Part shown: piece after piece, positions 5,129 through 43,819 of the stretch
Numbering within the stretch: the stretch's first letter is position 1
Layout: each line of letters begins with the position of its first letter
Source: Pseudomonas silvicola
GTDB lineage: Bacteria; Pseudomonadota; Gammaproteobacteria; Pseudomonadales; Pseudomonadaceae
Reading direction: 5' to 3'
Length of the DNA: 64,000 nt
NCBI RefSeq assembly: GCF_026651855.1
Contig: NZ_CP093280.1
Coordinates: 7,214,501 to 7,278,500, forward strand
Notes under the pieces: generated by a model
Told to the model about the DNA's origin: nothing
Database searches by the model: none
Seen by the model: only the letters and a program-made list of their open reading frames with translations
Translations under genes and position numbers: made by a program

Positions 5129-5177
5129 GAGTGTGTAAATAGGTAAATTCTTCCCTATCGGATGTATTTACCCACTC
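5129..5177. promoter_or_regulatory. Imperfect inverted repeat in front of the TpsB gene
   Basis: Two 13-bp arms, GAGTGTGTAAATA (5129-5141) and TATTTACCCACTC (5165-5177), match at about 12 positions, with a second small stem ATAGG/CCTAT inside. It lies just upstream of the chosen TpsB start and in clearly AT-richer DNA than the neighbours. It may be an operator or a leader hairpin. I see no known regulator motif. Confidence 0.4.
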
Positions 5178-5191
5178 AGAAGAATAACAAG

Positions 5192-6817: not shown

Positions 6818-6841
6818 CTCATCGACAAAAGAGATAACAAC

Positions 6842-24664: not shown

Positions 24665-24807
24665 GCTCTTACCTTGCCTGTACGTTTAGCAGAAATTTTT
24701 TTGTTATGACGGCTAGAGCTTAGAGAGAAGGAGGCTGGTTTAGCCATAGTGCAGGTGTGCTATAGCCTGATGCCGTTACTGCTGGAACACGACACCCGGA
24801 AACAAGA

Positions 24808-24829
24808 AAGCCCGCAATTACGCGGGCTT
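24808..24829 (-). terminator. Ancestral guaA-type terminator, left of island
   Basis: AGCCCGC pairs with GCGGGCT over a 6-base loop. Read on the minus strand, a T-containing tail follows. A nearly identical hairpin lies at 43737-43757 next to guaA. This left copy is probably the terminator that followed guaA before the island inserted. Confidence 0.7.
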
Positions 24830-24875
24830 CCGGGGTGTTTCTTGCCACTTGATGCCGGTTTATGCCGGACGCGGG

Positions 24876-24892
24876 ATCATTCCCACTCTATC
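24876..24892 (-). other. attL: left copy of the guaA 3' end
   Basis: ATCATTCCCACTCTATC matches the guaA 3' end at 43803-43819 in 16 of 17 positions. Read on the minus strand it still encodes the last guaA residues IEWE and the stop codon. It marks the left junction of the island. Upstream similarity to the right end extends to 24808. The 360-bp stretch 24665-25025 holds this site and the hairpin but no gene. Confidence 0.85.
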
Positions 24893-28000: not shown

Positions 28001-28853
28001 CTAGAGCAGAGGGCAGTAAGTCATCACCAAGGTCAGCATAAATCGCACTGGATTTAGGTAAAGGTTCACCGCCAAGATTTTCCTCGAATAATGCCTGCGC
28101 GAAACGTGTCTTGCCCACACCCGATAAGCCAATGATACGGACGGCGCTTCCTGGGGTGCGTAGCTTTTCCCGCGTACGGAGTAAACCGCTAAGTAGAGGC
28201 TGAGGCTCATCCGCAGCGGTATCAGCCAAAAATACACAAGGATGCTCGTCCGTCAAAAATTCATCGGCAATATCAACGGGCGTAGCTGCCCATCGGCCGA
28301 ATGGGCGCCATCCCGAAAGAGGTTTACCCAGTTTATATCTTACCCAAAGCGCGACTCCCGGGTACTGGCGCAGCCAAGTTGCTATCCGATCACGCCCATA
28401 AAAGTCCAGTATTAACTGATCTTTAGATGGTAAGGACGCTACTGCCTCTACCATTCCACTTAAACGTTCTGACAACATTTTATCAGAGCAATTATCTTTA
28501 CCGCTTACGATGATATAAGCCCCTCTCTGGTGGGCAATAGCAGCAATAACGGGCTTTAGTGAACCTTTATCAAGCATTTCCTTAGTGCAAGAAGCCTTAC
28601 CCATAGCATGTTTTTTAACTTGAAATCCAGTAACGCTACGAGGTACAAAATTTGGATACTTTAATTGCCTAGTTTCATTAACACTAACATCTAGTCCACC
28701 ATCAGCGGCTTCCTGAGCACCGCCCCATGTGACACACGAAGTTGCCAGACCAGCTTGTACCAGCTCGGCCTCGCATAAACGTCCGACAAGCTCTCGGAGG
28801 TCATCATCACCAAGTTCTGATATATCTTTGGCTTCAATCTCGAAAAATCTCAT
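25026..28853 (-). CDS. STAND/AVAST-like NTPase with N-terminal nuclease-like domain
   Basis: A 1275-residue protein with ATG at 28853 preceded by AGGAAG (an open GTG three codons upstream lies on top of that site). The N-terminal 170 residues hold GGLDVSV followed by GFQVKK, a D...QxK arrangement expected of a PD-(D/E)xK Mrr/Cap4-type nuclease. A P-loop NTPase follows, with Walker A GLSGVGKT (about residue 245) and Walker B-like YIVLDN (about residue 300), then about 800 residues of helical repeats as a probable sensor. This layout matches antiviral STAND (Avs) proteins, which recognise phage proteins and cut DNA. It stands alone on the minus strand, is AT-rich, and is the first gene inside attL. 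The exact Avs class cannot be assigned without a structural search. Confidence 0.75.
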   Translation of the reverse strand: MRFFEIEAKDISELGDDDLRELVGRLCEAELVQAGLATSCVTWGGAQEAADGGLDVSVNETRQLKYPNFVPRSVTGFQVKKHAMGKASCTKEMLDKGSLKPVIAAIAHQRGAYIIVSGKDNCSDKMLSERLSGMVEAVASLPSKDQLILDFYGRDRIATWLRQYPGVALWVRYKLGKPLSGWRPFGRWAATPVDIADEFLTDEHPCVFLADTAADEPQPLLSGLLRTREKLRTPGSAVRIIGLSGVGKTRFAQALFEENLGGEPLPKSSAIYADLGDDLLPSALELVGYFIANDIASYIVLDNCPADVHRQLQKAVSSSGTKLRILTIEYDISDDKPEETEVVKIEPSSESTVSKLIQLRFPDLARGNADKIAEFSGGNARVAIALASRVKIDETLTNFSDEELFQRLFSQRKGKSEILFESAEALSLFYSFDISHGGLNDELSVISSISGIERRTLYRHAAELLRRQLAQKRGDWRAILPHALANRLAKSALENIAISEVNSELFKSANIRLLKSCAHRIGYLHDCKAAQDLAESWIIPGAPLGDISICNSDLIDCLNYIAPVFPATVLSCLESASMQPGFATRSNPNFIMFVRLLCHLAYEEEYFDRAVAVLLKFAEDESERENNNSIVAQVKQLFSLYLSGTQASPSRRRSVIEGLLQSSEHRFHQIAFRLLDSALETGHWSSWGTFDFGARKRGPGWVPGNHAEQTDWYEQIIQLLERYLVLEHASLHDHVKILLSSNFRGLWTSVGCFELLERIVNTYARAGAWPEMWVAIKNVIHFDSDRHDSKLLERLRTLEKNSAPADPFSEIEAYALTNTWTHVIVDAQDFSTASAAMHEKLMMLGEIASAEQSYIDRLGDRLWRTHIDSLWHFGKGLARGSVDKNAMFEKLIRQVEESELEEVQPILLVGFLHEMHEQNVSMFRAMIEAILYERKLAPHAVYLLCASPLEAWGVIKLVELAKSGIVDSWRFVHISLGRMHEKISDEMLVELLSILIELDGGLISVVQILEMRFFIDHDSSYIPSDSLLAFGRQVFLRMLAMHRDEIGQISSHGLKRIAKYCLSISAPLAEIAEIVSLICDGVTNYRLYSFEITDVTSVLIKNFPELFLSGVFRGDEDDDVLAYMIFRDRGYGVKTSSLNKVPIGKLIDWCNADQNKLKQLSSVVGIYLAVEPEDGLIENPRRVELSSHIKTILDAAEDKTQIVDIIYARARPSGWSGSLADILEVRAHAFSELLHHSALEVRDCAKAKLALMEQSIRHNRARESEEHNRWEQRFE

Positions 28854-28970
28854 GTATCCCACTTCCTAAATATCACACAGCATCTGTGCGAACGCAGAGT
28901 CAAAATCATTAGCAAGCCAGGAAGCGATGAGTCCCGATAATTTGAAAATCATCCGGGCGTAGCTAAAGCG

Positions 28971-29336: not shown

Positions 29337-31031
29337 ATGTTGATAACTACAGATGAAATAACTAAATTTAGCCTAGAAGCCGACACATACATCCTTAGCA
29401 ATGACCACAGAAAGCTAGAAGAACTTGTCACAAAAATCACAGAACAAGAATATGAGTTTGAGCACCAATATAATGAAGCACAGTACCTATACACGGCAGC
29501 TAACTGTTATTCAGTACTTTACGGTGCCAGAACAGTCACTTGGCATTCTGATGATCTGATGAAGGCTGTAATACTTTATAGGAGAGCTCTACACTGCCTT
29601 CCAAAAACAAACTGGATGGACAAGCCTGACATTATTGAATCGAGCAACCAACTGAGATCGATGATACTTACGAATCTGGCTAACAGCCTTTCATCACAAG
29701 GAAGGGCTTTTTGCTGTTTACCATTTTATGATGAAGCCATTGCTTTAAATCAAAAGCCTGAAGCAATTATTTCTAAAGCACGAAATCAGTTATTTCTCGG
29801 AGAATCACTGTTCGACAACGGCCATAGAGAATACCATTACTTCGTAGCAAACAACCTCATCAAGACCGCACAAAAAAATATTAATGCGTTATACCCCGAG
29901 CACAAAACAGACATTGAGAAAGGCGGGGATTTATATGAGTTCAGCCAGTGGTTCGAGCAAAGTTTTGATCAATCCAGTTTTGATTATTTTTCCGAAAAAA
30001 ATAGCACATTTAAAAACAGAAAAGAAAATCAGTATTTACAATGGTGCGCACAGCACAAACTATTTATAAACGACCTTAATGATGTTTGCGACTTCGAAAT
30101 ATGTTATCAAGACGTCATCTCTTTACCTTCTATTAGCAGGACTTTAAATACAACCCTGGCACTGCATGAAGAGTTAGCATATCATGGAAACTTCGATGAA
30201 ATAAAAAACGATTACTGCTATGCGCGGTATATTTACTTTTCCGCAACAAACATTCCTGCTGACGCACCACACATGTTCAACTCCAGTTATAATCAAGTGG
30301 ATGACATGTCTCACTCTATCAACAACCTAAAGACCAGTCATTACAAATCTTCATTTAGAACGCTATACTCTTTATTCGACAAAATAGCGTACATAGCCAG
30401 TCGCTTTTTTGACTTAAACGACATAAAAGATGATAGATCAATAAGCATAGACAATTTATTTAGAGACATCAAATCAAAAAACCGAAAAATAAAATGGGAA
30501 CCCAACGAAAAATTAAAAAATAGTGACAACCATTTTATCCATGCACTTTTTTACATACTCAAAGATATTCGAGACGTAACAGGTACTTCCTCTGTATCTA
30601 AATGGATCGATCCAGATGCTAGCGCTTTTTCAGAAATCAGGAACGCCATGGAGCATCGGTCTCTGAAGATAGTTGATGACTTTGGATACGAGTTAACTTA
30701 CTCATACTCCAGCTATCACGACGATGAACTTCAAAAATTAAAAATTCAGGCTTTCGAAATAAATAAGAAAATCGAGTCAGTTTCGGATGCTGCTGAAGCT
30801 CTCGCTTTAGAAGACAGGTTGAATCAATTCAAAAACACAATCTATGAAAAGGAGAAACTATCCACTCACTCATTGCTCATACCTATTACCCAATTTGACT
30901 CTCGACTTATGACCCTAATCAAACTAGCTAGGAATTCAATCATGTATCTATCTCTTGCCATTCACTTCGAAGAGAGAAAACGCCCAAACGACCAAATTTG
31001 GATTCCGATGGAATTACCTTTAAAAGATTAA
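29337..31031 (+). CDS. LA2681-like HEPN domain protein with helical N-terminus
   Basis: A 564-residue, AT-rich gene with GAGGT before the ATG. The N-terminal 230 residues look like TPR-type helical repeats (for example NLANSLSSQGRAFCCLPFYDEAI). The C-terminal part resembles the LA2681-like HEPN family: a long helical domain with EIRNAMEHR, the R-x4-H signature of HEPN RNases, at about residue 440. HEPN proteins commonly cut RNA in toxin or phage-defence systems. It sits between the STAND gene and the transfer region; no partner antitoxin is obvious. Confidence 0.7.
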   Translation: MLITTDEITKFSLEADTYILSNDHRKLEELVTKITEQEYEFEHQYNEAQYLYTAANCYSVLYGARTVTWHSDDLMKAVILYRRALHCLPKTNWMDKPDIIESSNQLRSMILTNLANSLSSQGRAFCCLPFYDEAIALNQKPEAIISKARNQLFLGESLFDNGHREYHYFVANNLIKTAQKNINALYPEHKTDIEKGGDLYEFSQWFEQSFDQSSFDYFSEKNSTFKNRKENQYLQWCAQHKLFINDLNDVCDFEICYQDVISLPSISRTLNTTLALHEELAYHGNFDEIKNDYCYARYIYFSATNIPADAPHMFNSSYNQVDDMSHSINNLKTSHYKSSFRTLYSLFDKIAYIASRFFDLNDIKDDRSISIDNLFRDIKSKNRKIKWEPNEKLKNSDNHFIHALFYILKDIRDVTGTSSVSKWIDPDASAFSEIRNAMEHRSLKIVDDFGYELTYSYSSYHDDELQKLKIQAFEINKKIESVSDAAEALALEDRLNQFKNTIYEKEKLSTHSLLIPITQFDSRLMTLIKLARNSIMYLSLAIHFEERKRPNDQIWIPMELPLKD

Positions 31032-31466: not shown

Positions 31467-31838
31467 CTACCTATGCGACTTAACAATTAATCCCATTTTT
31501 TCTGCTACGGCTTTTTGCAATTTGCGAAACTCTACCATCGTACTCTCGACGTTGGCGGCATTTGCCCCTTCTCCATGCTTCTCTGCAAGCCAGAGTTTCA
31601 ATAGGCCGGCAACCCGCCCAAGGTCGCCATTTACCTTGGCCAAATCGGCTACTGCCTTAAGGTCAACGACAGATCGGATGGGCGTGTTCAAACCAAGGGC
31701 GCGAAGATAGCCCGACCGAGACAATCTAGCTTCTTTTGCCTTATCGCTTATCACCGTCTTTTCCTCCTCAGTAACCCAAACCTCAATGGGCTTGCCGCGT
31801 CGGCGAGCCGTTGTTTTTTCTTTGGTGCCGCCTGTCAT
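31467..31838 (-). CDS. traJ: TraJ-like relaxosome accessory protein
   Basis: A 123-residue protein, the same length as IncP TraJ. The sequence PIEVWVTEEE, the SRSGYLRALGL stretch and DLGRVAGLLKLWLAE follow the IncP TraJ pattern: a ribbon-helix-helix-type oriT-binding protein that recruits the relaxase. I chose the ATG at 31838 because AGGAG sits just upstream; 28 extra codons are open before it and run into an IS. An IS5-family element now lies directly upstream, between this gene and oriT, and may have replaced its promoter. No traI follows. Confidence 0.8.
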   Translation of the reverse strand: MTGGTKEKTTARRRGKPIEVWVTEEEKTVISDKAKEARLSRSGYLRALGLNTPIRSVVDLKAVADLAKVNGDLGRVAGLLKLWLAEKHGEGANAANVESTMVEFRKLQKAVAEKMGLIVKSHR

Positions 31839-31873
31839 GGGCGCTCCTGTTGCTGCTGTGTTTTTGCTCTTAG

Positions 31874-33063
31874 GGAAATCCTGAAAAAGACTTCCTGATT
31901 TGGCAAAATCTCCGGACACCAATCGCCGAGCTTTTCAATGAAGCAAATGACCTTCGCCGATGCCGAGTACGCCGGTAAGCGCAAGCAGACCCGCAAGGAA
32001 TTGTTCCTGATCGAGATGGATCGGGTCGTACCCTGGAAGGGTTTGATTGCCCTGATCGAACCTCATTACCCGAAGGGCGAAGGGGGTCGTCCGGCCTATC
32101 CTTTGATGGCGATGCTGCGGGTTCATCTCATGCAGAACTGGTTCGGTTACAGCGATCCTGCGATGGAAGAAGCGCTGTACGAGACGACGATCTTGCGCCA
32201 GTTTTCCGGTCTGAGCCTGGAGCGGATCCCAGATGAAACTACCATCCTCAACTTCCGTCGCCTGCTGGAAAAGCGCGAGTTGGCCGCTGGTATTCTCGGC
32301 GTGATCAATGGCTATCTGGGCGACCGTGGCTTGTCGCTGCGACAAGGCACCATCGTCGATGCCACGCTGATTCATGCGCCCAGTTCGACCAAGAATAAGG
32401 ACGGCAAACGCGATCCTGAGATGCATCAAACCAAGAAAGGTAACCAGTATTACTTCGGTGCCAAAGCTCACATTGGTGTCGACGATGAGTCAGGGCTGGT
32501 GCACAGCGTGGTGGTCACTGCGGCCAACGTCGCGGACATAACCCAAGTCGACAAACTGCTACACGGTGCTGAGAACGTGGTCTGCGCCGATGCAGGCTAT
32601 ACCGGTGTCGAGAAGCGCGAAGAGCATGCGGTACGCCACGTCATCTGGCAGATTGCAACCCGGCGCAGTACCTACAAAAAACACGGTAAACGCAGCGCGC
32701 TGTACAAAGCGATGCGCAAGATCGAGAAAGCCAAGGCCCAGGTTCGCGCCAAGGTTGAGCATCCATTTCGAGTGATCAAGCGTCAGTTTGGTTATACGAA
32801 AGTGCGTTTCCGAGGATTGGTGAAAAACACTGCTCAGATGGTGATGCTGTTCGCCCTGTCGAACCTTTGGATGGCGCGTCGATATTTGCTCTCTAGCGCA
32901 GGAGAGGTGCGTCCGTAATGAGGGAAATAGCTGCTGCGAGGAGCGTTCAGCGGAAAAAATGGATGGAATAGGCGGCAGACTTGATCGGTTTTGAACGGCT
33001 GCCGTTTTTTGAAAGCACCTATGGCTCAGCAGTCGAAAAATAGCGGCCTACTTCAGACCATCC
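31874..33063 (+). mobile_element. IS5-family insertion sequence, 1190 bp
   Basis: The transposase gene is flanked by imperfect inverted ends: GGAAATCCTGAAAAAGAC on the left and GGATGGTCTGAAGTAGGC as the reverse complement of the right end. Both are bordered by the 4-bp direct repeat TTAG (31870-31873 and 33064-33067), which fits the YTAR target of IS5 elements, and the total length is close to that of IS5. Removing it places traJ about 40 bp from the oriT-like region. Confidence 0.85.
31938..32918 (+). CDS. IS5-family transposase
   Basis: A 326-residue DDE transposase. The N-terminal MKQMTFADAEY and GYSDPAMEEALYE segment is followed by the catalytic DATLI (first Asp), ADAGYTG (second Asp) and the Y(2)R(3)E-like region ending VEHPFRVIKRQFGYTK. 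The gene is intact, so the element may be active. It lies 64 bp inside the left terminal repeat. Confidence 0.95.
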   Translation: MKQMTFADAEYAGKRKQTRKELFLIEMDRVVPWKGLIALIEPHYPKGEGGRPAYPLMAMLRVHLMQNWFGYSDPAMEEALYETTILRQFSGLSLERIPDETTILNFRRLLEKRELAAGILGVINGYLGDRGLSLRQGTIVDATLIHAPSSTKNKDGKRDPEMHQTKKGNQYYFGAKAHIGVDDESGLVHSVVVTAANVADITQVDKLLHGAENVVCADAGYTGVEKREEHAVRHVIWQIATRRSTYKKHGKRSALYKAMRKIEKAKAQVRAKVEHPFRVIKRQFGYTKVRFRGLVKNTAQMVMLFALSNLWMARRYLLSSAGEVRP

Positions 33064-33085
33064 TTAGACGCGGTAGCGGCTGTGC

Positions 33086-33185
33086 GCCTCGCAGAGCAAG
33101 ATACGTTGAGCCGAAGGCGAATAAGTGGCAAGTGGTGGATGGGTACGGGCTTGCCCGTACCCGTACAACACACATCTTGCCGTCC
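33086..33185 (+). other. oriT, IncP/RP4-like origin of transfer
   Basis: The order of motifs matches RP4 oriT as I remember it: GCCTCGCAGAGCA, then CGTTGAGC, then GCGAATAAG, an inverted repeat (perfect 10-bp arms GGGTACGGGC at 33141-33150 and GCCCGTACCC at 33153-33162), and a nick-like CATCTTG/C with the expected cut between 33179 and 33180. RP4 has TATCCTG/C here and a different hairpin sequence. TraJ of IncP plasmids binds the hairpin, so an altered hairpin fits an element-encoded TraJ. It lies just right of the IS. Confidence 0.75.
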
Positions 33186-33240
33186 AATCCTGAGCGACTC
33201 TATGCAATTTGATCAATACCGTCAGCTTAAAAAAACAAAA

Positions 33241-33330
33241 TCGCTGACTTTCGCATTGAATCGCATACCTTCGCATTGAATCGCATACCTTCGCGTTGAG
33301 TCGCGCACCATCGCATAGATTCGCATTAAC
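33241..33330 (+). repeat. Nine phased 10-bp units, each beginning TCGC
   Basis: Starting at 33241, every tenth base begins a new TCGC for nine consecutive units. Units 2-3 and 4-5 are an exact 20-bp tandem duplication (TCGCATTGAA then TCGCATACCT). The later units keep TCGC and vary after it. The spacing equals about one helical turn, so a protein array on one DNA face is likely. It is 55 bp from the oriT nick and 200 bp before trbJ, followed by AT-rich DNA. In the 615-bp gap 32919-33533 this, the IS end, oriT and a small hairpin are all I can see. Confidence 0.85.
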
Positions 33331-33446
33331 TAATTAACTTACCACCCGCAACCAACAATACTTTTGTGACCTACCCCCATACGGGCCAGCAAGCAAACCA
33401 ATCTTTATTAACGGACATTTTGCGGACAACTCTCATCATCGGTAGC

Positions 33447-33464
33447 CGGATAGAAAACTATCCG
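33447..33464. promoter_or_regulatory. Perfect hairpin upstream of trbJ
   Basis: CGGATAG and CTATCCG flank an AAAA loop, 70 bp before the trbJ start. It may be a small operator or a terminator of leftward or rightward reading; no T-tract decides this. Confidence 0.4.
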
Positions 33465-33533
33465 CCTATTTAAAATTTCAGCATTAGGCGAGATAATCGA
33501 CGCCACGACAGCTGACATGACAAGGTATTCGAT

Positions 33534-34325
33534 ATGAAGCAGCGATCGACACACCGCGCCTACCCAACTCCCTACAAAATTGCTCGAAGTGCCATGTTGG
33601 GTATCACTATGACAGCGACAAGCCTCGCCGGTTTGGCTTTTTACTCTTCCTCTGCCTACGCGATATATTGCTCTAACTGCTCAACCTTCTATCAGCAGAT
33701 GTTCCAATATGCTGAGGAGGTCAATACCTCACTCAATACAGCCGAACAATTAAAAAACCAAATTCAGCAATATCAAAACATGGTTACACAGGGCATGAGC
33801 TTGCCCAACTCTATCTTTGGGAGTATCGCAACAGACCTGCAAAGCGTGGTTAGTATCTATAATCGATCACAGAGCCTAGGCAGAGAACTTCAGAACATCG
33901 ATACGCAGTTCAACGATAAATTCCCCGGCTTTCAGTCTTATCTGAACGGCACGACGAATTATACTGCTCTCACTACACAGGAGCGTTATCAGAATTGGTC
34001 AGAGCAAGGTCGTGACAATGTGAAATCAGCGCTCGAGGCAGCAAATCTAAACACGAGCAGTTTTGAATCTGAAGATACGAAATTGGCTAGCATGGTCGCT
34101 CGCTCTCAGTCGGCAGTCGGTCGTATGCAAGCGATCCAGGCAGGCAACGAAATAGCCTCACAGAATGTTCAGCAACTTCAAAAGCTGCGTGATCTTTTAG
34201 CTACACAGATCAATATGCAGGGTAACTATTTGGCGCTAGAGGACGACCGTAAGGACATCACTGAGGCAACCGAACAGAAGTTCAAGGAACAGCCTACTAT
34301 CCGCGGTGGCTCGAAGGGGTACTAA
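33534..34325 (+). CDS. trbJ: P-type conjugative transfer protein TrbJ (VirB5-like)
   Basis: A 263-residue exported protein. A long N-region is followed by a hydrophobic signal sequence (about residues 20-43, ending AYA), and the mature part is helical with coiled-coil character (QQMFQYAEEVNTSLNTAEQL). TrbJ is the VirB5-like component of the IncP mating-pair apparatus and probably sits at the pilus tip. It heads a plus-strand group of trbJ, a trbK-position gene, trbL and a small membrane protein, but trbB-trbI are absent from the island. Its C-terminal tail (TIRGGSKGY) recurs in the next gene. Confidence 0.85.
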   Translation: MKQRSTHRAYPTPYKIARSAMLGITMTATSLAGLAFYSSSAYAIYCSNCSTFYQQMFQYAEEVNTSLNTAEQLKNQIQQYQNMVTQGMSLPNSIFGSIATDLQSVVSIYNRSQSLGRELQNIDTQFNDKFPGFQSYLNGTTNYTALTTQERYQNWSEQGRDNVKSALEAANLNTSSFESEDTKLASMVARSQSAVGRMQAIQAGNEIASQNVQQLQKLRDLLATQINMQGNYLALEDDRKDITEATEQKFKEQPTIRGGSKGY

Positions 34326-34327
34326 AA

Positions 34328-34504
34328 ATGGGCATTTCAAAGTGGCTTATAGTTCTGATGTGTGCTGGTTCAGCTGTCGCCGCTTCAGTGACTACAATCA
34401 TAATCGGGAGTCACCAAGAATGCAGAGCAAGCGGTGATCAAAAAAATGCAGACTCAGACTTTAAAGATCAGCGGACTACCCGTGGTGGATCAAAGGGATA
34501 CTAA
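34328..34504 (+). CDS. Small membrane protein in trbK position (entry-exclusion candidate)
   Basis: A 58-residue protein with an N-terminal hydrophobic segment (MGISKWLIVLMCAGSAVAAS) and a polar tail containing one cysteine. It begins 2 bp after trbJ and ends 2 bp before trbL, the place where IncP plasmids carry trbK, the entry-exclusion lipoprotein. No clear lipobox is present. The tail FKDQRTTRGGSKGY is almost the same as the TrbJ tail FKEQPTIRGGSKGY although the DNA has diverged, so it may share a binding partner with TrbJ or come from a duplication. Homology with TrbK is not shown. Confidence 0.55.
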   Translation: MGISKWLIVLMCAGSAVAASVTTIIIGSHQECRASGDQKNADSDFKDQRTTRGGSKGY

Positions 34505-34506
34505 GT

Positions 34507-36108
34507 ATGGATCGTCGTCTCTTGTGGCTCCTCGCGTTCATGGGGATCTTCATCGCTAGTAATGCGCTGGCTGACACCAACCTTGCACAACCAGATACGT
34601 CAGTTGATGGCCTCTTGGACCTAATAATAAATCAGTCGGGTCAGTGGTCACAACGATTGTACGGCTATGCGACTACCCTGTTCTGGCTTTTGGCAACTAT
34701 TCAGCTAGTCTGGACATTTATGCCATTAGTTATGAAACAGGCTGATATAGGCGAGATTGCAGGCGAGCTGGTGCGCTTCATTTTGGTGACTGGCTTCTTT
34801 TTAGCAATATTGAAATATGCTGTGGAATGGGCTACAGCCATTGTCGACAGTTTTCGTGACGCGGGAGCTGCTGCGAGCGGGCTTGAACGGGCGTTGCAGC
34901 CCGGAGACGTCTTCGCAATGGCAGTGGAGTTTTCTCGCGCGATCTTGGCGAGCATTTCATTTTTTTCTCCCGGGCAAGCACTCGCAATTAGCTTAGCGGC
35001 TTTTTTAGTGCTGATTTGCTTTGCATTCATTGCAGCCTTCATGTTCGTGACGCTCGTTGAGTCCTACGTGGTCATTAACGCATCTGTGTTGTTCTTCGGT
35101 TTTGGTGGTTCTCAGTGGACACGGGAATATGCGATTGCTCCCATCCGTTTCGCGGTTGCGGTCGGCGCTAAGTTGTTCGTATTGACCCTGATTATCGGCC
35201 TGATTTTGCAAGCAAGCCGCGAGTGGTCAGCTGCGTACCAGAACAACGAAGCCTCCGTGATGACGATGGCGGGGCTAGCTTTGATTTGCGCCTATTTGAC
35301 GAAGACAATTCCAGACCTTGTCGGCGGCATGATTAGTGGTTCGTCAATGGGTGGTGGTTCGGCCATCGGAGGAATGGCAACGGCCGGAGCGGCGGGTGCT
35401 GCTGCCGCGATCGCCACCGTCGCCACGGCGGGGGTTGCAGCACCTGCTGTAGCCAGCGCACTTGGTGCTGCTAGTAGTGGCGCAGGTACTACCGCTGGCA
35501 GTGGGTTGGCGGGCGCGATCAACTCTAGTTTCGCCAATGCCGCAAGTTCAGCAGGCAGCGGAGCGTCAACGTTAACCGGTGGCGCCGCGCCCTCTGAGGT
35601 GGGTGCCAGCACTGGCGGCAGAACTACCAAGGGTCCAATACTATCGGCGTCAAAGACCAGCGGCGGCCCGCCTGACCCAGCCTCGTCTAGAGCTGATGCT
35701 GAAGCCGCAAAATTGTCTCAGCATGCAGCCAAACAAACCGGTAAGGCCGCACAAGTAAACGAGAACAACGGCCCACAGCAAGCGGCACCAAAAGGGGAAG
35801 CAGTCATGACTGGGGATGAAGTTATCCAGGCTGCTGGTGGGGCTGCAAAGGTGCTCGGCGTTATGGCGTCACTAGCCGTGCCAGGCATGGAGAATGCCCA
35901 CGCCTCATCTCTTGGTGCAGGCTCTACGTTAGCCGTTGCTGACGACAGCTCTTCAGCTCAGGCCAGAGGAACTGAATCGCCCAGTGGACCCGAAGACGCG
36001 GTATCCAACGTGATCCGCCCCGCCTCTGGCACCAGCGCGGCTCACGGAGGCATTGCTTCGCTCAATGTGCCCGGTACGACATCGAACAACGACCCTCTGG
36101 AGGAATAA
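34507..36108 (+). CDS. trbL: P-type conjugative transfer protein TrbL (VirB6-like)
   Basis: A 533-residue polytopic inner-membrane protein. A signal-like first helix is followed by six or so membrane spans between residues 50 and 290 (for example FILVTGFFLAILKYA and LVLICFAFIAAFMFV), then a long Gly/Ala/Ser-rich cytoplasmic or periplasmic tail. This is the normal layout of TrbL, the channel subunit equivalent to VirB6. In SGI1-type islands the corresponding channel subunit replaces that of the helper plasmid. Intact here, with a full-length tail. Confidence 0.85.
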   Translation: MDRRLLWLLAFMGIFIASNALADTNLAQPDTSVDGLLDLIINQSGQWSQRLYGYATTLFWLLATIQLVWTFMPLVMKQADIGEIAGELVRFILVTGFFLAILKYAVEWATAIVDSFRDAGAAASGLERALQPGDVFAMAVEFSRAILASISFFSPGQALAISLAAFLVLICFAFIAAFMFVTLVESYVVINASVLFFGFGGSQWTREYAIAPIRFAVAVGAKLFVLTLIIGLILQASREWSAAYQNNEASVMTMAGLALICAYLTKTIPDLVGGMISGSSMGGGSAIGGMATAGAAGAAAAIATVATAGVAAPAVASALGAASSGAGTTAGSGLAGAINSSFANAASSAGSGASTLTGGAAPSEVGASTGGRTTKGPILSASKTSGGPPDPASSRADAEAAKLSQHAAKQTGKAAQVNENNGPQQAAPKGEAVMTGDEVIQAAGGAAKVLGVMASLAVPGMENAHASSLGAGSTLAVADDSSSAQARGTESPSGPEDAVSNVIRPASGTSAAHGGIASLNVPGTTSNNDPLEE

Positions 36109-36110
36109 CC

Positions 36111-36419
36111 ATGACAGACATTCTGATATTCGCTGGGTTCTCAGCACTGGTCTTTACGCTCGGCATTGCCTTATGGGCGCTTGGCCAATGGCTGCGCAGC
36201 AAGGGCTATGGACCGCAGCTCGATAAGCTGGATCGCCAGTACACAGCGCTCCAGCTCAGGGTGAGCCCGCTGGCCCTATCGGCTTCATACCGTATGATTG
36301 CGGGAGCACATAGCATGAATCGCCTACCTCTGCTGGGAAGCAAAAGTAACGCAGCTCTGACAAAGCAGATTCTGATGGCGATGCGAGCCGAACAGCCTCC
36401 ACAAAAACAAAAAGGCTAA
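36111..36419 (+). CDS. Small membrane protein after trbL, unknown
   Basis: A 102-residue protein with GAGGA before its ATG, 2 bp after trbL, so part of the same transcript. One membrane span (about residues 5-27) is followed by a basic soluble tail. It does not look like TrbM or TrbN. A role with the TrbJ-TrbL group is suggested only by position. A strong terminator follows. Confidence 0.65.
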   Translation: MTDILIFAGFSALVFTLGIALWALGQWLRSKGYGPQLDKLDRQYTALQLRVSPLALSASYRMIAGAHSMNRLPLLGSKSNAALTKQILMAMRAEQPPQKQKG

Positions 36420-36693: not shown

Positions 36694-37146
36694 TCACTTT
36701 ATTGGGACGATCTCTGCCGTAATCTGCTGAACCCCGGACGGGCTGCCGCCTAAAGACAATTTCTCGGCGACTTTTTCGGCAGCGCCCCTAGTTTTATAAC
36801 CCTTGGCATCCCCTGGCTGATTCGAAGCTGCTATTCGCTTGCCGGTCTTGACTACGTATAGGCGCCTCGCTCCAAGCTTAAGCTCAAACCATACGATCCA
36901 ATCGCCGCCTGAGGCTTTTGAAGGATCAGGGATCGGCTCCCAAGACAATGATCCATCGTCGTGCTCGATGACTGCTATAGCAGAAGCGAGCGCACTAGCA
37001 CGTCGTTTCGCTGAAGCCCATGCTAGGGCAGCAGTCTCGTAACGCACCGTACTTTCCAAGCATGTGACCCAAACGCTTGGCGACGCATTTACAAGAAACC
37101 CTCCTTCGAGTCCACTTTCCAGTGCGTAACCAATTATCTTGCTCAT
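36694..37146 (-). CDS. Hypothetical island protein
   Basis: A 150-residue protein with AGAGGTG in front of the ATG. It is soluble and alanine-rich, with no signal peptide or membrane span. I do not recognise a domain. A WIVWFELKLGARRLYVVKTGKR strand-rich stretch lies in the middle. It could be a small nucleic-acid-binding or adaptor protein but nothing proves it. It follows the DUF262 gene in the same direction beyond a hairpin. Confidence 0.6.
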   Translation of the reverse strand: MSKIIGYALESGLEGGFLVNASPSVWVTCLESTVRYETAALAWASAKRRASALASAIAVIEHDDGSLSWEPIPDPSKASGGDWIVWFELKLGARRLYVVKTGKRIAASNQPGDAKGYKTRGAAEKVAEKLSLGGSPSGVQQITAEIVPIK

Positions 37147-37276: not shown

Positions 37277-38938
37277 TTAGTATGACCCGAGCAGCTTTGA
37301 ATTTAATGCAGACGCGATAGCATTAGACCGGCGCTCAATAAATGTGTCGTAGTCATCCGACGTCACACCATAGCTATCAACATCATGAATCAGATGACTT
37401 ATGAGCGTCTGCTGTATAGTTCCATTCTCCAATGAGAACGTCGAGATATATTCACTCGGTGCCTTTTTACTAATGCGATGCTTATTTGAATAACCGTCAA
37501 TCAATGTTATATTTGCCACCAGATTTGCATCCCTACCCGGCATGACAGTGGCCAGGTATCTGGTAGGAAAGAAATGGTGATAGTTACGGCTGCTCGCGAT
37601 TTTGAGATTGCTATTATCAAGTATCACGACACCATCGGTGTCAAAAGACTTTGGCTGATTAAATGCCAATAGACACAGTATCGACTTACAATAAGAGTTA
37701 CCAGATGAGAAATATGTGTTAGCTATGTCCTGACTTTGAACAAGAAGCTCTGACTGAAGATAGTCCGGCGTTTTTCCGGCTAATATCATATCCATCTTAT
37801 GGAAGTCTTCAGTGATCCCAGAGTCAGAAGACGACCCGTATCGCTCCGTTAACCCAACCCAATAAAAAAACTGCTCAAGCAGCCTAGCTTGTGAAGCTGT
37901 TGGTTTATGGTTCTTGGTTGCGTGGAAGTAGTATGTTAGAGGGATCAGCAATGCCGGATAGGGTAGGAGCTGAGAAACGGGAACCCTTATTTCCGTGCGA
38001 AGAAAATCTATTGCTGTAAAGAGAGAAGCACTCATAGGTGCCCAGCTCGCGATAAAGTCTTCTCGTTTAATCCCTAAAATGTCTCGTCCACGCACGGCGC
38101 GTGTCGTGATAGCCGCTACACACTGCATGATTAGAGATGGAGGTAGTGTTTCGTACTTGGCGGTCCTGAGACATGTTTTTTCGTCCTCAGAACCATCTCT
38201 CAAGATTTCGTAACGTTCTGCCAAATCGAAAGATTTACTTTCATCATAGGTTTTCGCGACCATTATTTCGAAAACGGTCAGGGCTTTTCCTCCGGTGTTA
38301 ATTCGGGAGAAAATCTCACAAGCCACTTCTATCGGATAATCACGAATGGTGATCGTAGGGAAATCATAATTTGTAAGGCTGTTTTTGTAAGACTCCATCA
38401 GTTCTAGCTGGGGCTTTGTGAACTCATCCATTAGATCAGTGAACTTGCAAGTTAATAGCCTGTGTACAGAGATGAGATTCGACTCTCCCTCAAGACGGGA
38501 TGTCTTGACTATAGACTCTTCACGCTCTAAATTTTCAGATAAATCAATGTAAATATCTTGATAATTTATTTCCTTGCCATCCTTGCTGATCCGAAGCCCC
38601 TTTCGAATAGCATAAAGTGAGGTTATTCGCTGCTGCCCATCCAGTATGTATTGGACATAATCTCCTTTTGGAGTATCCGGCAAAATGTGATTCCCCACTT
38701 CCTTGTAGCTTCTAAGCTCCTCACGAGTTTTCCAAAAGATAAAAGTCCCAATAGGAAAGCCTTTAAGAATTGAGTCAATCAGTTTCGCCGACTGCTCTTT
38801 CTCCCAAACAAACTCCCTCTGAAACATTGGAAGCTTGATCTGACCCGTATCAATTTCCAAAAAAAGAGATTCATATTTTTTGTTCTGGTTTTCTGGTTGA
38901 AACAATACCGTTGCTGGAGGAGAAATCGCTGTGTTCAC
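37277..38938 (-). CDS. DUF262-HNH (GmrSD-like) defence protein
   Basis: A 553-residue protein starting with GTG preceded by GGGAG. The N-terminal DUF262 domain has LPMFQREFVWE and the nucleotide-binding-type YILDGQQRITSLYAI (about residue 95), then FSRINTGGKALT. The C-terminal region RNYHHFFPTRYL...NITLID...NK resembles the DUF1524-type HNH nuclease. This fused layout is that of GmrSD-like type IV restriction and related anti-phage proteins that attack modified DNA. It is AT-rich compared with the backbone and stands alone. The phage or modification targeted cannot be read from the sequence. Confidence 0.8.
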   Translation of the reverse strand: MNTAISPPATVLFQPENQNKKYESLFLEIDTGQIKLPMFQREFVWEKEQSAKLIDSILKGFPIGTFIFWKTREELRSYKEVGNHILPDTPKGDYVQYILDGQQRITSLYAIRKGLRISKDGKEINYQDIYIDLSENLEREESIVKTSRLEGESNLISVHRLLTCKFTDLMDEFTKPQLELMESYKNSLTNYDFPTITIRDYPIEVACEIFSRINTGGKALTVFEIMVAKTYDESKSFDLAERYEILRDGSEDEKTCLRTAKYETLPPSLIMQCVAAITTRAVRGRDILGIKREDFIASWAPMSASLFTAIDFLRTEIRVPVSQLLPYPALLIPLTYYFHATKNHKPTASQARLLEQFFYWVGLTERYGSSSDSGITEDFHKMDMILAGKTPDYLQSELLVQSQDIANTYFSSGNSYCKSILCLLAFNQPKSFDTDGVVILDNSNLKIASSRNYHHFFPTRYLATVMPGRDANLVANITLIDGYSNKHRISKKAPSEYISTFSLENGTIQQTLISHLIHDVDSYGVTSDDYDTFIERRSNAIASALNSKLLGSY

Positions 38939-39546: not shown

Positions 39547-40953
39547 TTACAATGCTTCCGAAGGCAGTAGGCTTGAATCAGCCTCAACCGCTGGAGCGTC
39601 GGGCTTACCCGCGCGGTACCAACTTGCGCGGCTCATCCCGAGGGATTCCCAAGGCTTCCTCTGGCTCAATGACGTGCTTATATAAGTCTGGCGGTCTAGC
39701 GCGCCCGCTGCCCGTCTGCGGCTTTCCTCGCGCTTCCTGTGGCGTTCTGCGGCTTCGTCTGTGCTGATTACAGTCCTAAGCTGCCGCTGCTCGTCTGGTG
39801 TGATCCTGAACAGGTTAATCAGCGTGTCATTCTTGGGTGTGTACAGCGGGGCATAGTCCTTGCCCCCAAAGCTGACTTTCTCGCCTGCCTCGAACGCTTT
39901 GGCCTTGCTGAACAGGGTCATCAGCTCTTTGGAACGGCTGTTCCACTGTGGGTCTAACTCACGGGCCAGCGCGGATGCTTCGTGGTACATCTGTTTGCTG
40001 TTCGTTGCGCCGGACAACAACAGGAAGTTCAACCGCCAGAACAGGTGCTGCATTCGGCTGCCTTCGCTGACGCCGCCGCGCATGTCGGCCAGCTTGCGTA
40101 AGTCCTCCAGCCGATCCCACGCGAGCTGGCGGCCGGAGAATCCGCGTAGGGTGTTGGTCTTGCCGCCGGAAACCAGCTTGAAGGGCTTGCGCTGGATGCG
40201 TTCGGCCTGCTCTTGGCGTTGCTGCTCGATGGTCCATCGAGCGGTCGGCAAAAGCGCTTCGGCCATATACTCGAAGTTGTACCGCACCGGCTGACCGTCC
40301 GTGCCGGTCTGCACATGCACCACGCGGCAAATTTCGCCGCTCTTGCTGTTGACGGTTTCCACGGTGCGCAGGACGCGGCTTGCGTCCTTGGCCATCGGGT
40401 CGGCTCCCACATGCGACAAGCGATCAACAAGGTAGCGCTGGCAGGCGTTCCAGCGTGGCAATGCCTGACGCGGGATCGTACCATCTAAAAGCCACTTGGC
40501 TTGGATTCCACGGCCGCTGTAGATCAGCATGGACGGGGCGGGTATGCCTTCCTCCGCACAGAGGTACATCACAGAGCTGGCCAGGGCGTCGGGCGAGCGT
40601 CCGGCGAGTTCTGGAATGTTGTAGGTGTCGAGGTCAGCGAACAGCAGCCCCAAGCGCGAGAGGTTCACGACGCGCCGGTTAGGGCGAATGAACTCGGCCT
40701 GTGACATCCAAGTGTCGCGGGTCTTGTCTACCAGACCGAGGACGGTCGGCATGTCTGCCAGCAAATGGGACGACTGGCGCTTGTCGCCACGCACATCAAC
40801 AAGGAGGGAAAAAAAGCCGCTCCGGGTGCTGTCGTGGTACGTCTGCGCCTCTTCCTGAGAACTGAACAGCGCAAGCTGTGAACTTTGGAGTTGAGCGGAC
40901 GCCGGGCTTAGATGCGTCTGCGACGTGGACCCTACGGCGGGCCCCAACCGCAC
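39547..40953 (-). CDS. Primase-type replication protein of the island
   Basis: A 468-residue protein with a GTG start, 3 bp after the AlpA-like gene. The middle part looks like an archaeo-eukaryotic primase fold: FADLDTY (DxD-like metal site), YSGRGIQAKWL, and KDASRVLRTVETVNSK with conserved basic residues. The C-terminal 200 residues are helical. Such proteins replicate or prime plasmids and integrated elements after excision. The family assignment is from motifs only. Confidence 0.65.
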   Translation of the reverse strand: MRLGPAVGSTSQTHLSPASAQLQSSQLALFSSQEEAQTYHDSTRSGFFSLLVDVRGDKRQSSHLLADMPTVLGLVDKTRDTWMSQAEFIRPNRRVVNLSRLGLLFADLDTYNIPELAGRSPDALASSVMYLCAEEGIPAPSMLIYSGRGIQAKWLLDGTIPRQALPRWNACQRYLVDRLSHVGADPMAKDASRVLRTVETVNSKSGEICRVVHVQTGTDGQPVRYNFEYMAEALLPTARWTIEQQRQEQAERIQRKPFKLVSGGKTNTLRGFSGRQLAWDRLEDLRKLADMRGGVSEGSRMQHLFWRLNFLLLSGATNSKQMYHEASALARELDPQWNSRSKELMTLFSKAKAFEAGEKVSFGGKDYAPLYTPKNDTLINLFRITPDEQRQLRTVISTDEAAERHRKREESRRRAAGALDRQTYISTSLSQRKPWESLGMSRASWYRAGKPDAPAVEADSSLLPSEAL

Positions 40954-40956
40954 GAC

Positions 40957-41178
40957 TCAAGCCCCGATTCCGGGTCTGGGAGCTGGGCCTGCCCCCTTGC
41001 ATGCATCAATCCAGTCTTCGACTTCAGCCAAGTCCCAAACGACCTTGCGACTGCTGATAGCGATGCGCCGTGGGAATTTCCCCTTGCTTTCAAAGTTGTA
41101 AATTGTGCGCTCACACAGTGGGATCATCGCTAGAAGCGTTTTTTTGTCGATGAGAACTCTGTTAGTCGATACGTGCAT
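40957..41178 (-). CDS. AlpA-family regulator/excisionase-like protein
   Basis: A 73-residue winged-helix protein of the AlpA/MerR-like type (LLAMIPLCERTIYNFESKG, then FPRRI and WDLAEVEDWI). In integrative elements AlpA-type proteins switch on or direct integrase-mediated excision. It is translated just ahead of the Rep gene and diverges from the HTH protein gene 82 bp away. Confidence 0.85.
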   Translation of the reverse strand: MHVSTNRVLIDKKTLLAMIPLCERTIYNFESKGKFPRRIAISSRKVVWDLAEVEDWIDACKGAGPAPRPGIGA

Positions 41179-41260
41179 ACCTGGCCTCTATCAGTCACAA
41201 CAAATGTGTGCCTGATCGTGCCCCGCTATGCCGCTTGCTTCGATGGAATGATTGGCTAAA

Positions 41261-42226
41261 ATGGTTGACATGAAAAATACATCAACCATCGCTATCTGGG
41301 AGGGGTGCGACCCTACCGTCTCAAATGCCGTCACACGATTTATGGATTGCTGGGAGCCCTACTCCGCGTCTGCAAAGCGCTACCCTATCGTTCAACTGGT
41401 AGAGGAGCTCATCGACCCTGCTGTTGCGGCGTATACCGAAGCGCTTCCGTCGCGTTATCTAGGGCACGTACCAGGTGCCGGAACAGGTGTAGCATTTAGC
41501 GAGATCACCCAATTGGTGGGGCTCGACGCCATGGTCCGTTTACAGCGAAAATTGCTGCGAGCTTTTATCCTGACCGAAGACGGACAGTCCGAAACAGATC
41601 GGCGATTTATCGCAACACTCGAGACGCTGATCGAGCTCGTATGGGCGTGCCAGCGTAAGCAACCAGCGAAAAGAGATGTACGCGGTTTGAATGGTCAACG
41701 CTTAAGGGGCTTCTGTAGATTTTGCGGTACGCTCGCTGAGCTGGCTTCTTACGCCGACGGTGAGGGAGCGCGTGGGGCAGATGAACAACTACGGCTAAGC
41801 AACCTTTACTGCGCAGCTCACCGCCCCAAGGCGCCGAATGGCGAATGGAATCCCGCGTACAGGAAAGCGAAAAGGTCTGTAGGGCAGTTCGACCTGGAAT
41901 TGACCAGACTGAGTCGACAATGCGCCGTGCGAGGCATGGCACAAGCGAACTCAGGCGACGAACTGGTGGACAGCTACATCCTTCACTACATCCTCGGCCA
42001 AACGCTCCACGCGGCAGACGAAGCAGAGTTACGCAACCTAGCCCGCCAGATGGCGGACTCGAAACTTTCGGACAGAAAAAAGCAAATGCTGATGCTTCTG
42101 CAGCTGGATTTTAATCAGTCGGAGATTGCGCGCAGGCTGGGTATCGAACGCCAAGCAGTATCCAAAGCCATCGCCTCTATCCCAGAGGTATTTCGCCTGA
42201 AACCGCCAAAACAATCCGTCCGCTAA
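41261..42226 (+). CDS. Zinc-finger and HTH regulatory protein of the island
   Basis: About 321 residues from ATG 41261 (TTG 41252 and ATG 41270 are alternatives; the ribosome site is not clear). A CRFCG...LYCAAHRP cluster in the middle looks like a zinc finger. The C-terminal LSDRKKQMLMLLQLDFNQSE and following RLGIERQAVSKAI form a sigma-70 region 4/LuxR-like helix-turn-helix. It diverges from alpA, so it may control the switch. A TGGTTGA/TCAACCA inverted repeat overlaps its start (41262-41288) and could be an autoregulatory site. Genes of this kind are common near integrase and AlpA in related islands. Confidence 0.65.
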   Translation: MVDMKNTSTIAIWEGCDPTVSNAVTRFMDCWEPYSASAKRYPIVQLVEELIDPAVAAYTEALPSRYLGHVPGAGTGVAFSEITQLVGLDAMVRLQRKLLRAFILTEDGQSETDRRFIATLETLIELVWACQRKQPAKRDVRGLNGQRLRGFCRFCGTLAELASYADGEGARGADEQLRLSNLYCAAHRPKAPNGEWNPAYRKAKRSVGQFDLELTRLSRQCAVRGMAQANSGDELVDSYILHYILGQTLHAADEAELRNLARQMADSKLSDRKKQMLMLLQLDFNQSEIARRLGIERQAVSKAIASIPEVFRLKPPKQSVR

Positions 42227-43673: not shown

Positions 43674-43736
43674 ACATAAACAGGGTGCTTGGCGATGCAC
43701 AAAGCTGCCGGAGTTTGCCAGACCCAAAAAGCCAAA

Positions 43737-43757
43737 AGCCCGCAATTACGCGGGCTC
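43737..43757 (-). terminator. guaA terminator supplied by the island end
   Basis: AGCCCGC and GCGGGCT pair over GTAATT on the minus strand, with TTTTGGCTTTTT after. It is 46 bp past the guaA stop and lies in the island's own end, so the element restores guaA termination. Confidence 0.8.
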
Positions 43758-43802
43758 CAGGGCATTTCTTGCTAGTTGGTGCCGGACAATGCCGGACGTC
43801 CA

Positions 43803-43819
43803 ATCATTCCCACTCGATC
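43803..43819 (-). other. attR: guaA 3' end at the right junction
   Basis: ATCATTCCCACTCGATC covers the last codons and stop of intact guaA and differs from attL in one of 17 bases. The recombination crossover is expected here. Confidence 0.85.

Follow-up and report, generated by a model that had tools for sequence, protein, structure and literature searches.

A 64,000-nucleotide stretch of the 8.65 Mb genome of Pseudomonas silvicola (contig NZ_CP093280.1, positions 7,214,501 to 7,278,500; genome contamination is given as 8.04%), referred to here as the window, contains an island of ~19 kb integrated at the 3' end of guaA, its ends being placed by a blastn repeat match. The island carries a block of conjugation genes, trbJ-trbK-trbL-orf102, together with an origin of transfer (oriT) and traJ, and the nearest named relatives of both the window's guaA and its trb block are from Pseudomonas. 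Within an operon, the last ~15 residues of TrbJ and of TrbK are variants of a single tail, whose type differs from one operon to another; this pairing is a strong sequence pattern, and its mechanism may be one of self-recognition in conjugative exclusion.

The transfer region of the guaA island

The oriT is located at about 33063..33215 on the forward strand, as judged by blastn and alignment, and includes at 33174-33180 a nick-like ATCTTG|C, which we take to be the RP4-type nick core. It is intact in the window, with ATCTTG|CC aligned to the corresponding sites of pEC743_4, pSN1216-29, a P. viciae plasmid and other islands. A scan of 84,980 species genomes yielded 40 related loci (loci are designated by L numbers), and the oriT is matched by blastn in 33 of these, as well as in complete plasmids at 77-85% identity over about 115-125 bp. 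An earlier interpretation made from the letters alone (the sequence-only reading) had described an oriT of incompatibility group P (IncP) type; such an oriT is indeed found at ~33063-33215, although the link of the island to IncP-1 and RP4, judged by TrbJ, is distant.

The traJ gene (31467..31838, reverse strand) encodes a NikA-like relaxosome protein (Pfam NikA-like, E 3.3e-19) of 123 residues from the ATG; it matches the curated TraJ model with an E-value of 6.4e-24, below the cut-off of that model, and aligns at 58% over 98 residues with the TraJ of pSN1216-29. The 123-residue TraJ-like protein of the sequence-only reading is present, but it lies outside the segment 33086..36419 to which that reading referred and is parted from oriT by an insertion sequence (IS). 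This IS5-family insertion (31873..33062, forward strand; transposase at 31938-32918, NF033581 E 1.5e-106) is flanked by a 4-bp duplication, CTTA, at 31869-31872 and 33063-33066, and it is missing from L039, where the same flanks are continuous.

The trb block begins with trbJ (33534..34325; VirB5-like, TIGR02780 E 1.3e-70) and continues with a gene of 58 codons in the trbK position (34328..34504), trbL (34507..36108; VirB6-like, TIGR02783 E 5.3e-82) and orf102 (36111..36419), all on the forward strand. The first three are intact, as had been proposed from the sequence. TrbK is assigned by its position between trbJ and trbL, its hydrophobic N-terminal anchor and its TrbJ-like tail; its match to the TrbK_Ti model TIGR04361 has an E-value of 0.0016, below cut-off. 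The orf102 gene, overlooked earlier, encodes a small protein with a hydrophobic N-terminus that is homologous to the product of an open reading frame (ORF) between trbL and trbF in pSN1216-29-like plasmids (42% identity over 64% of the 101-residue protein of pSN1216-29), so that the order trbJ-trbK-trbL-orf102 is the gene order of pSN1216-29 itself. Partial tblastn matches had hinted that the C-terminal half of TrbL might be a hypervariable exclusion domain; this was rejected on full alignment, which gives 83-85% identity with L039 and L009.

Proteins of pSN1216-29, the P. viciae plasmid, the IncP island and R751 were used as tblastn queries, and neither a relaxase nor a coupling protein nor any further trb gene was detected in the window, in agreement with the sequence-only reading. 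The TraK of pSN1216-29 likewise gave no match in the window. Family assignment with Pfam and NCBIfam covered most ORFs of the island.

Matching tails of TrbJ and TrbK

The codons of the TrbJ tail common to TrbK are at 34278..34322 (...KEQPTIRGGSKGY) and those of the copy in TrbK at 34457..34501 (...KDQRTTRGGSKGY), both on the forward strand; the tails are FKEQPTIRGGSKGY in TrbJ and FKDQRTTRGGSKGY in TrbK, both end in RGGSKGY, and the own-pair score is 59. Corresponding TrbJ/TrbK tails are FEARKNTRGGVKGY/FEARPNTRGGVKGY in L010, FEARRNNWGPSEDF/FEARKNNWGPSEDF in L014, FRSRENTRGPSEGF/FRSRPNTRGPSEGF in L030 and FWGGTDTPGPSKGF/FWEGKDEPGPSKGF in L035. The guaA island GIsul2 has TFRPSPADNY/EFKPSPKDDY, R751 has YRASPARTW/FKPSPKREW, the IncP plasmid pHNFP671 has TYTKSPAQSW/EFTKSPEKKW, a Ti plasmid has DIRGGQTMEPRW/DIRGGQEMKPRW, and in Campylobacter pCC42yr the last 16 residues are identical between TrbJ and TrbK. 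A gonococcal plasmid has DILKHPYRRGQ/DVLKRPYKRKE; its trbK is unannotated in the record used here, and a 141-bp trbK is named in the literature (PMC2848598).

In each operon TrbK was picked by an automatic rule that is blind to the tail, namely as the nearest small downstream ORF with a hydrophobic N-terminus, and the last 16 residues of TrbJ were scored against the last 30 of TrbK by local BLOSUM62 alignment. There were 115 pairs, those of R46 and R388 being entered by annotation; two (L032 and L083), in which TrbJ is truncated ahead of the tail, were set aside, and the remaining 113 form 42 clusters at 80% TrbJ-core identity, each counted by one representative. Twelve loci in which the rule found no TrbK were left out (L042, L045, L046, L051, L054, L057, L095, L106, L108, L111, L126 and L127). 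The 42-cluster set also excludes L001-L004, L048 and L090, which are copies of the window or come from the window's own genome, L122, which lacks trb genes, and L049, another GIsul2 copy, whose tails match. In L095 a matching tail is present in a different frame from the anchor.

Own pairs score 41.0 and crossed pairs 15.8, a difference reached in 0 of 20000 permutations. With seven further loci (L049, L136-L138, L140, L148 and L149) the set grows to 120 pairs in 43 clusters and the values are 40.9 and 15.7 (0/20000). Scores of at least 35 are seen in 24 of the 42 own pairs and in 55 of 1722 crossed ones; R751 (38) and GIsul2 (64) are not cluster representatives. Within the pSN-type family alone (n=39) own pairs score 63.2 and crossed pairs 31.5 (0/20000). 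The controls are flat for residues -64 to -48 of TrbJ against the TrbK tail (11.3 own, 11.6 crossed) and for the TrbJ tail against the first 30 residues of TrbK (11.2 and 11.6), and slightly raised for TrbJ residues -32 to -16 against the TrbK tail (15.3 and 13.8; 5/5000 permutations) and for the reversed TrbJ tail (15.2 and 14.1; 80/5000). Identity in a per-position profile is 75-92% at positions -1 to -7 and -9 and 58% at -8, and it approaches background levels from about -16 on; only the 24 clusters with an own score of at least 35 enter this profile, so that its height is selected and its fall at -15/-16 is the informative part. The likeness is independent of the scoring used here, as the NCBI TrbK_Ti model, applied to ten TrbJ proteins, matches the ends of two Ti-type ones: the final 40 residues (215-254) in a TrbJ from a Ti plasmid, with E 1.5e-8, and the final 43 (224-266) in that of L089, with E 7.2e-6. 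No mention of a shared TrbJ/TrbK tail was found in the open literature, in a search that reached few subscription papers.

Plasmid pKS77 (L121) has two tandem trbK-like ORFs between trbJ and trbL, of which the second, unannotated one (2451-2666) alone has a TrbJ-like tail, with a score of 47; the pairing rule took the first (no match), and the second was kept out of the statistics. A class of operons that we take to be of Tn4371/rhizobial type has a small downstream gene whose end is unlike the TrbJ tail; this is seen in L050, L053, L059-L063, L065, L087, L088, L091-L094, L096 and L097, and likewise in L099, L100, L102-L105, L107, L109, L110, L113 and L115.

Evolution of the tails and codon usage

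A tree was built from 39 TrbJ cores after the tails had been trimmed off. The WGPSEDF and RGG[VA]KGY tail types need six changes each on this tree, of which at least three and four, respectively, are forced by well-supported branches. The tail label is common to TrbJ and TrbK in 33 of the 39; five of the other six are near-matches and L044 is a real mismatch. The closely related cores L010/L037 and L028/L071 differ in tail and TrbK together. Because the end of trbJ adjoins trbK, one recombination event can swap both, which accounts for the joint switching but not for the likeness of the two tails.

The same codon is used for 322 of 588 identical tail residues (55%, versus 39% expected), for five of the 11 identical residues other than M and W in the window, and for 14 of 14 in pCC42yr. 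The overall agreement points to a match that is mostly at the protein level, with some relatedness at the DNA level. Gene conversion was rejected as the whole cause, since 45% of the identical residues differ in codon; a modest excess of shared codons remains unexplained.

These values bear on a very unlikely alternative, that translation signals (ribosome-binding sites in gene ends) or DNA duplication or conversion produced the tail match, which would then serve no function in the protein. The trbJ stop and the trbK start are 1-2 nt apart in most pSN-type islands, so the tail codons overlap the ribosome-binding region, and the codon excess and the pCC42yr identity are also in keeping with such an origin. 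The match persists, however, when the last four residues are masked (28.2 own, 13.5 crossed) and when the TrbJ-TrbK gap is at least 9 nt (38.2 and 14.5; n=20), controls which speak against a Shine-Dalgarno artefact; moreover, nearly half of the identical residues use different codons, as noted above, and the TrbL ends show no match to the TrbJ tail (14.1 and 14.2; n=16).

Recurrence and selection

The 40 related loci were sorted using relaxase, coupling and trb queries from four sources, with guaA, integrase or alpA as island markers. Twenty-four have island markers and J/L-type genes, and in the stretch examined neither a relaxase nor a coupling gene nor a further trb gene was detected; these include L042, with a truncated trbJ and trbL not detected, and L032 and L036, with damaged trbJ. 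Among these islands oriT is found in 23, traJ in 21 and a trbK ORF in 23 (all but L042). Six loci have neither a relaxase nor an island marker (short contigs and distant relatives; in L013 there is none within the 10 kb examined), six carry a TraI relaxase (L030, L031, L035, L037, L040 and L041), and four are operons with most trb genes (L023, L038, L044 and L047). This recurrence is taken to be more than chance.

Within the window's genus, 398 genomes were sampled and 20 of them, the window's own included, have a TrbJ match with E≤1e-30. The trbJ-trbL stretch of L034 is matched in 75 of 5426 Escherichia coli genomes, and in 24 of these the match spans at least 80% of it; one of the matching E. 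coli loci, L124, which has a relaxase and a kasugamycin acetyltransferase gene, belongs to the IncP island type known from the literature. In the Xanthomonas perforans plasmid pLH3.4 (L120), traI is followed directly by trbJ and trbK in the 3.6 kb examined, and this may be a pared-down mobilizable plasmid carrying the same pair of exclusion genes.

Ratios of nonsynonymous to synonymous substitution rates (dN/dS) for the window are about 0.15 for trbJ (versus L039 and L008), 0.18-0.24 for trbL (versus L039, L008 and L009; 0.20-0.24 for L039/L008) and 0.29-0.37 for trbK (versus L008 and L039); against L039/L008 the integrase gives 0.03 and orf102 0.61 and 0.17. As estimated from these ratios, trbJ and trbL are under purifying selection.

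It is therefore extremely unlikely that the island is the remnant of a decayed integrative and conjugative element (ICE) or plasmid integration, even though it has no relaxase or coupling protein and an IS beside traJ, and some relatives (L032, L036 and L042) are visibly damaged. The same set in 24 of the 40 loci, with conserved order and oriT, and dN/dS well below 1 for trbJ and trbL, make damage the exception among the loci, and the earlier judgement that the set is not random decay holds. That reading had also taken further tra or trb genes in close copies as a sign of a decayed ICE: TraI is found in six of the 40 loci, which are of the known IncP-island kind, and an operon with most trb genes in four, and none of the island-marked loci has another trb gene in the stretch examined.

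The helper plasmid family

The window TrbJ is 66-67% identical to that of pSN1216-29 and 27-38%, over parts only, to that of R751. In a tblastn comparison with 72,556 plasmid records, TrbJ matched 842, of which 35 are at 60-80% identity; 29 of these 35 best are plasmids of 32-43 kb of the pSN1216-29 and pMBUI2 type, with hosts among the Enterobacterales, Pseudomonas, Xanthomonas and uncultured hosts. A DNA search with oriT (210 records) led to the same plasmids at 78-80% identity, with pMBUI2 and the P. viciae plasmid at 84.6%. Because oriT and TrbJ both point to the same small plasmids, the helper probably belongs to the pSN1216-29-like family, and the RP4-like helper of the sequence-only reading has to be given up: RP4/IncP-1 as the closest helper is rejected on the TrbJ and oriT matches. 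From the similarity of oriT, TraJ and TrbJ we infer that the island is a satellite of pSN1216-29-like plasmids; a helper-dependent architecture is supported.

Plasmid pSN1216-29 and its kin are called self-transmissible (PMC6232296, PMC7296055), contrary to the plasmid database, which types them as mobilizable. The P. viciae plasmid (NZ_CP123772.1, L139/L140) is 55 kb with a complete tra/trb set; its database type is non-mobilizable and its TrbJ is annotated as hypothetical. It is of the same genus as the window and its oriT is the 84.6% match, but its TrbJ is only 23% identical; its own TrbJ and TrbK tails are also alike (DGVRF/DGARF).

Comparison with known islands and systems

GIsul2 is described as a guaA island without a relaxase that encodes TrbJ, TrbK and TrbL, and it is proposed to borrow the relaxase of a helper and to reshape the helper's channel by analogy with SGI1 (PMC5704250); IncP plasmids are named as its likely helper (PMC9376610). 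The IncP island is described as the same trio plus a relaxase and TraJ/TraK (PMC5704250). The sequence-only reading had proposed a distinct class of IncP satellite; in view of these two islands the class is not distinct, and the pore-remodelling idea is already in print, as the same source proposes it for GIsul2.

The GIsul2 copy L123 resembles the window's island in its guaA-type integrase (87.8% identical), its AlpA regulator and its trbJ-trbK-trbL genes, in having no relaxase, coupling protein or other trb gene, and in that its own TrbJ and TrbK tails match each other. It differs in that its trio is IncP-1-like (its TrbJ is 66% identical to that of R751 and 26% to that of the window), in carrying RepA/RepC and sul2/ars cargo, and in that the window-type TraJ, orf102 and oriT were not found in it; conversely, no RepA or RepC was found in the island, the GIsul2 proteins giving a best tblastn E-value of 0.024 over 37 residues. 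Islands with one kind of integrase thus hold the same trio from two plasmid lineages, which is an argument for the trio being a functional unit. The IncP island (Brucella, Burkholderia glumae and E. coli L124) shares with the window the guaA site, TraJ and a pSN-type TrbJ-K-L block, and its oriT is similar (83% in L124); TrbJ is 55-67% identical to that of the window in the relaxase-bearing L030, L031, L035 and L037 and 43% in L040 and L041. It has, however, its own TraI relaxase, whereas the window has neither a TraI/MobP relaxase nor TraK. The island of the window differs from the published ones in combining its own TraJ and oriT with the absence of a relaxase, in the separate lineage of its trio, in orf102 and in its cargo.

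SGI1 with its IncC helper offers an analogy in the way it works, being a relaxase-less island with replacement channel subunits (PMC5704250, PMC5389848), but its genes are unrelated, its channel is F-type, and its site is trmE. The pSN1216-29-like plasmids (AP018710, L006) share oriT, TraJ and trbJ-K-L-orf101 in the same order, and differ in having a complete tra/trb set, plasmid replication and a different tail type. The TrbK/Eex proteins of IncP, IncN, IncW and Ti plasmids are, like the window TrbK, small anchored proteins encoded between VirB5- and VirB6-like genes (PMC8923210, PMC11045733). A strict lipobox is found in none of 34 island-type TrbKs and in 13 of 23 plasmid/ICE TrbKs; the island-type TrbKs (such as that at 34328-34504) seem to be anchored by a transmembrane helix rather than by lipid.

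Integration site, cargo and other genes

An attL/attR repeat and a related tyrosine integrase are both present, constituting a module for site-specific integration at the guaA 3' end. attL (24807..24888, forward strand) is the distal copy of an 82-bp imperfect direct repeat, a copy of the guaA 3' end that is 83% identical by blastn to 43735-43815 and ends ATCATTCCCACTC; attR (43735..43815, forward strand) lies at the guaA 3' end and was identified by the same repeat match. The integrase, of guaA-specific type (42288..43496, reverse strand), matches an NCBIfam integrase model with an E-value of 1.3e-47, below its cut-off, and is 87.8% identical to that of the GIsul2 copy in NC_022371.

The phage-defence cargo suggested earlier is represented by two supported candidates, both on the reverse strand: a PD-Lambda-4_A-like protein of 1278 residues (25026..28862; PADLOC PDLC03991 E 1.3e-295) and a GmrSD_N-domain protein (37277..38938; Pfam E 1.7e-32, PADLOC PDC-M55C E 1.1e-50). 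A further cargo protein of 564 residues (29337..31031, forward strand) has no assigned function, with a single insignificant NCBIfam match and nothing among PADLOC models at E≤0.01. The function of orf150 (36694..37146, reverse strand; 84-86% identity, common to L008 and L039) is likewise unassigned. Beside the alpA-like regulator (40957..41178, reverse strand; PF05930 E 1.1e-11) is a gene for a conserved 468-residue protein (39547..40953, reverse strand), 78-90% identical in several related loci and with no Pfam or NCBIfam match; a replication-type role can be guessed from a 78% relative positioned immediately ahead of trbA in the complete operon L023. A 324-residue protein (41252..42226, forward strand) has weak helix-turn-helix matches in Pfam, below cut-off, and is 68-77% identical in seven related loci and lower elsewhere.

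Outside the island, neighbouring large ORFs at 5162-11137 of the window resemble, by eye, a two-partner secretion transporter and a filamentous haemagglutinin-type exoprotein. Two equal-scoring VirB6/TrbL-family matches at G000:C3:29401-29892 and 71841-72332 are 42,440 bp apart, perhaps on a duplicated or concatenated plasmid contig, and a second, stronger TrbL-family match in the same genome (G000:C1:1546815-1547492) possibly belongs to another conjugative element.

A proposed exclusion cassette

We think it rather probable, taking the parts of the explanation jointly, that the window holds a relaxase-less integrative mobilizable island of the GIsul2 and IncP-island kind that rides on pSN1216-29-like conjugative plasmids, themselves related to IncP, with its trio acting as an exclusion-type cassette. 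The helper relaxase would nick the island oriT, the helper coupling protein and channel would export the island, and the island TrbJ and TrbL, with orf102, would enter the helper channel. The TrbJ tail on the VirB5-like tip would serve as a self tag, read or mimicked by TrbK in the recipient membrane, where TrbK would be a membrane-anchored mimic of the tip tail. A channel with island TrbJ would then be excluded by cells with TrbK of the island type, and not by cells holding only a helper of another tail type. Together trbJ, trbK and trbL would give channel and carrier cell a new tag at once, and this proposed role of the tail would be the reason that they travel as one exclusion-type cassette.

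A broader version can be considered with about even confidence, namely that in many systems of mating-pair formation type T (MPF_T) exclusion is a self-recognition code in the last ~15 residues of the VirB5-like protein, that TrbK/Eex is a tethered copy of it, that a recipient with the same tail blocks the channel, and that satellites such as this island take the trio as the smallest cassette able to alter at one stroke the code of the helper channel and that shown by the carrier cell. VirB5 is reported to sit on VirB6 in the stalk and to become the pilus tip (PMC12624023); a search by sequence for a VirB5 homologue among solved structures gave no credible match. TrbK acts in the recipient and its C-terminus is needed for exclusion, and the IncP TrbK has no known donor-side partner (PMC8923210). 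A recipient that expresses trbJ or trbK of RP4, either one by itself, is protected from the RP4 type IV secretion system (T4SS), and protection of recipients is given by RP4 and not by R388 or R6K (PMC11045733). A shared tail would account for these findings, if the tail is what is recognized.

These observations on RP4, the role of TrbK as a known exclusion protein of IncP plasmids (PMC8923210) and the candidate defence genes on the same island can also be read as immunity of the resident cell, with TrbJ and/or TrbK acting against incoming IncP-type plasmids or T4SS killing and with no remodelling of a channel. We consider this unlikely, as TrbL is kept too, under purifying selection, oriT and traJ accompany the trio in 23 and 21 of the 24 islands, and island-type tails are on average unlike the TrbK tails of plasmid-type operons. 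We know of no exclusion role for TrbL. In the pSN-type family 33 island-type TrbJs score 67.6 with their own TrbK and 17.8 with the TrbKs of five plasmid-type operons (42.2 for the own pairs of these five); the 33 include L058, L071, L072, L074, L076 and L078, known with 1.5 kb of flank only, and others (e.g. L013, L018, L024, L030, L035 and L041) with no island markers in the stretch, for which the status comes from TrbJ similarity, and L007, among the five, has no annotated relaxase. On the tail hypothesis this mismatch means that islands would exclude other islands rather than those plasmids.

A further alternative, also unlikely, is that the island TrbJ and TrbL replace helper subunits for the sake of pore quality, recipient range or competition with the helper, exclusion playing no part and TrbK being a mere passenger between them. 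The precedent of SGI1 (PMC5704250) and the placement of VirB5 and VirB6 in the stalk and of VirB5 at the pilus tip (PMC12624023) are in favour of this, but a trbK ORF in all but one of the 24 islands, with a tail that tracks the TrbJ tail, makes a passenger doubtful.

Several observations weigh against the satellite and exclusion-cassette explanation that we prefer. The tail pairing is not universal across operons: in ten of the 42 clusters, with Tn4371/rhizobial-type tails, there is no match (15.3 own, 15.6 crossed), so that these operons have either a different exclusion logic or a different gene; R388 and R46 match weakly (scores 22 and 21); and only in 20 of 42 clusters does no other TrbK outscore the own one, partly owing to the likeness of related tails. 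The contrast with pSN1216-29 itself is weak (window TrbJ with pSN1216-29 TrbK 25, helper own pair 29, helper TrbJ with window TrbK 28), and escape from pSN1216-29 itself is thus not predicted. TrbK of pKPC_UVA01 is reported to serve in donor and recipient and to exclude R751 and R46 as well (PMC8923210), which a strict tail code would not predict. The collections compared were without RP4 itself. A helper within the window's own genome was rejected, the best TraI match there (E 8.9e-4, 25% over 97 residues) not being credible, and no TrbE was found in that genome, in a search without a positive control. Finally, the IS, which starts 34 bp upstream of the traJ start, may reduce traJ expression.

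Should the explanation be true, the shared tail would account both for the donor partner of the IncP TrbK (PMC8923210) and for the otherwise odd protection that TrbJ, a part of the channel, gives in the recipient (PMC11045733), and it would supply a reason for guaA islands having taken the same three genes from two plasmid lineages. Exclusion specificity would then come down to a 15-residue tag, readable from genome sequences and open to scoring in them, and a sequence rule would be at hand for predicting which plasmids and satellites exclude each other.

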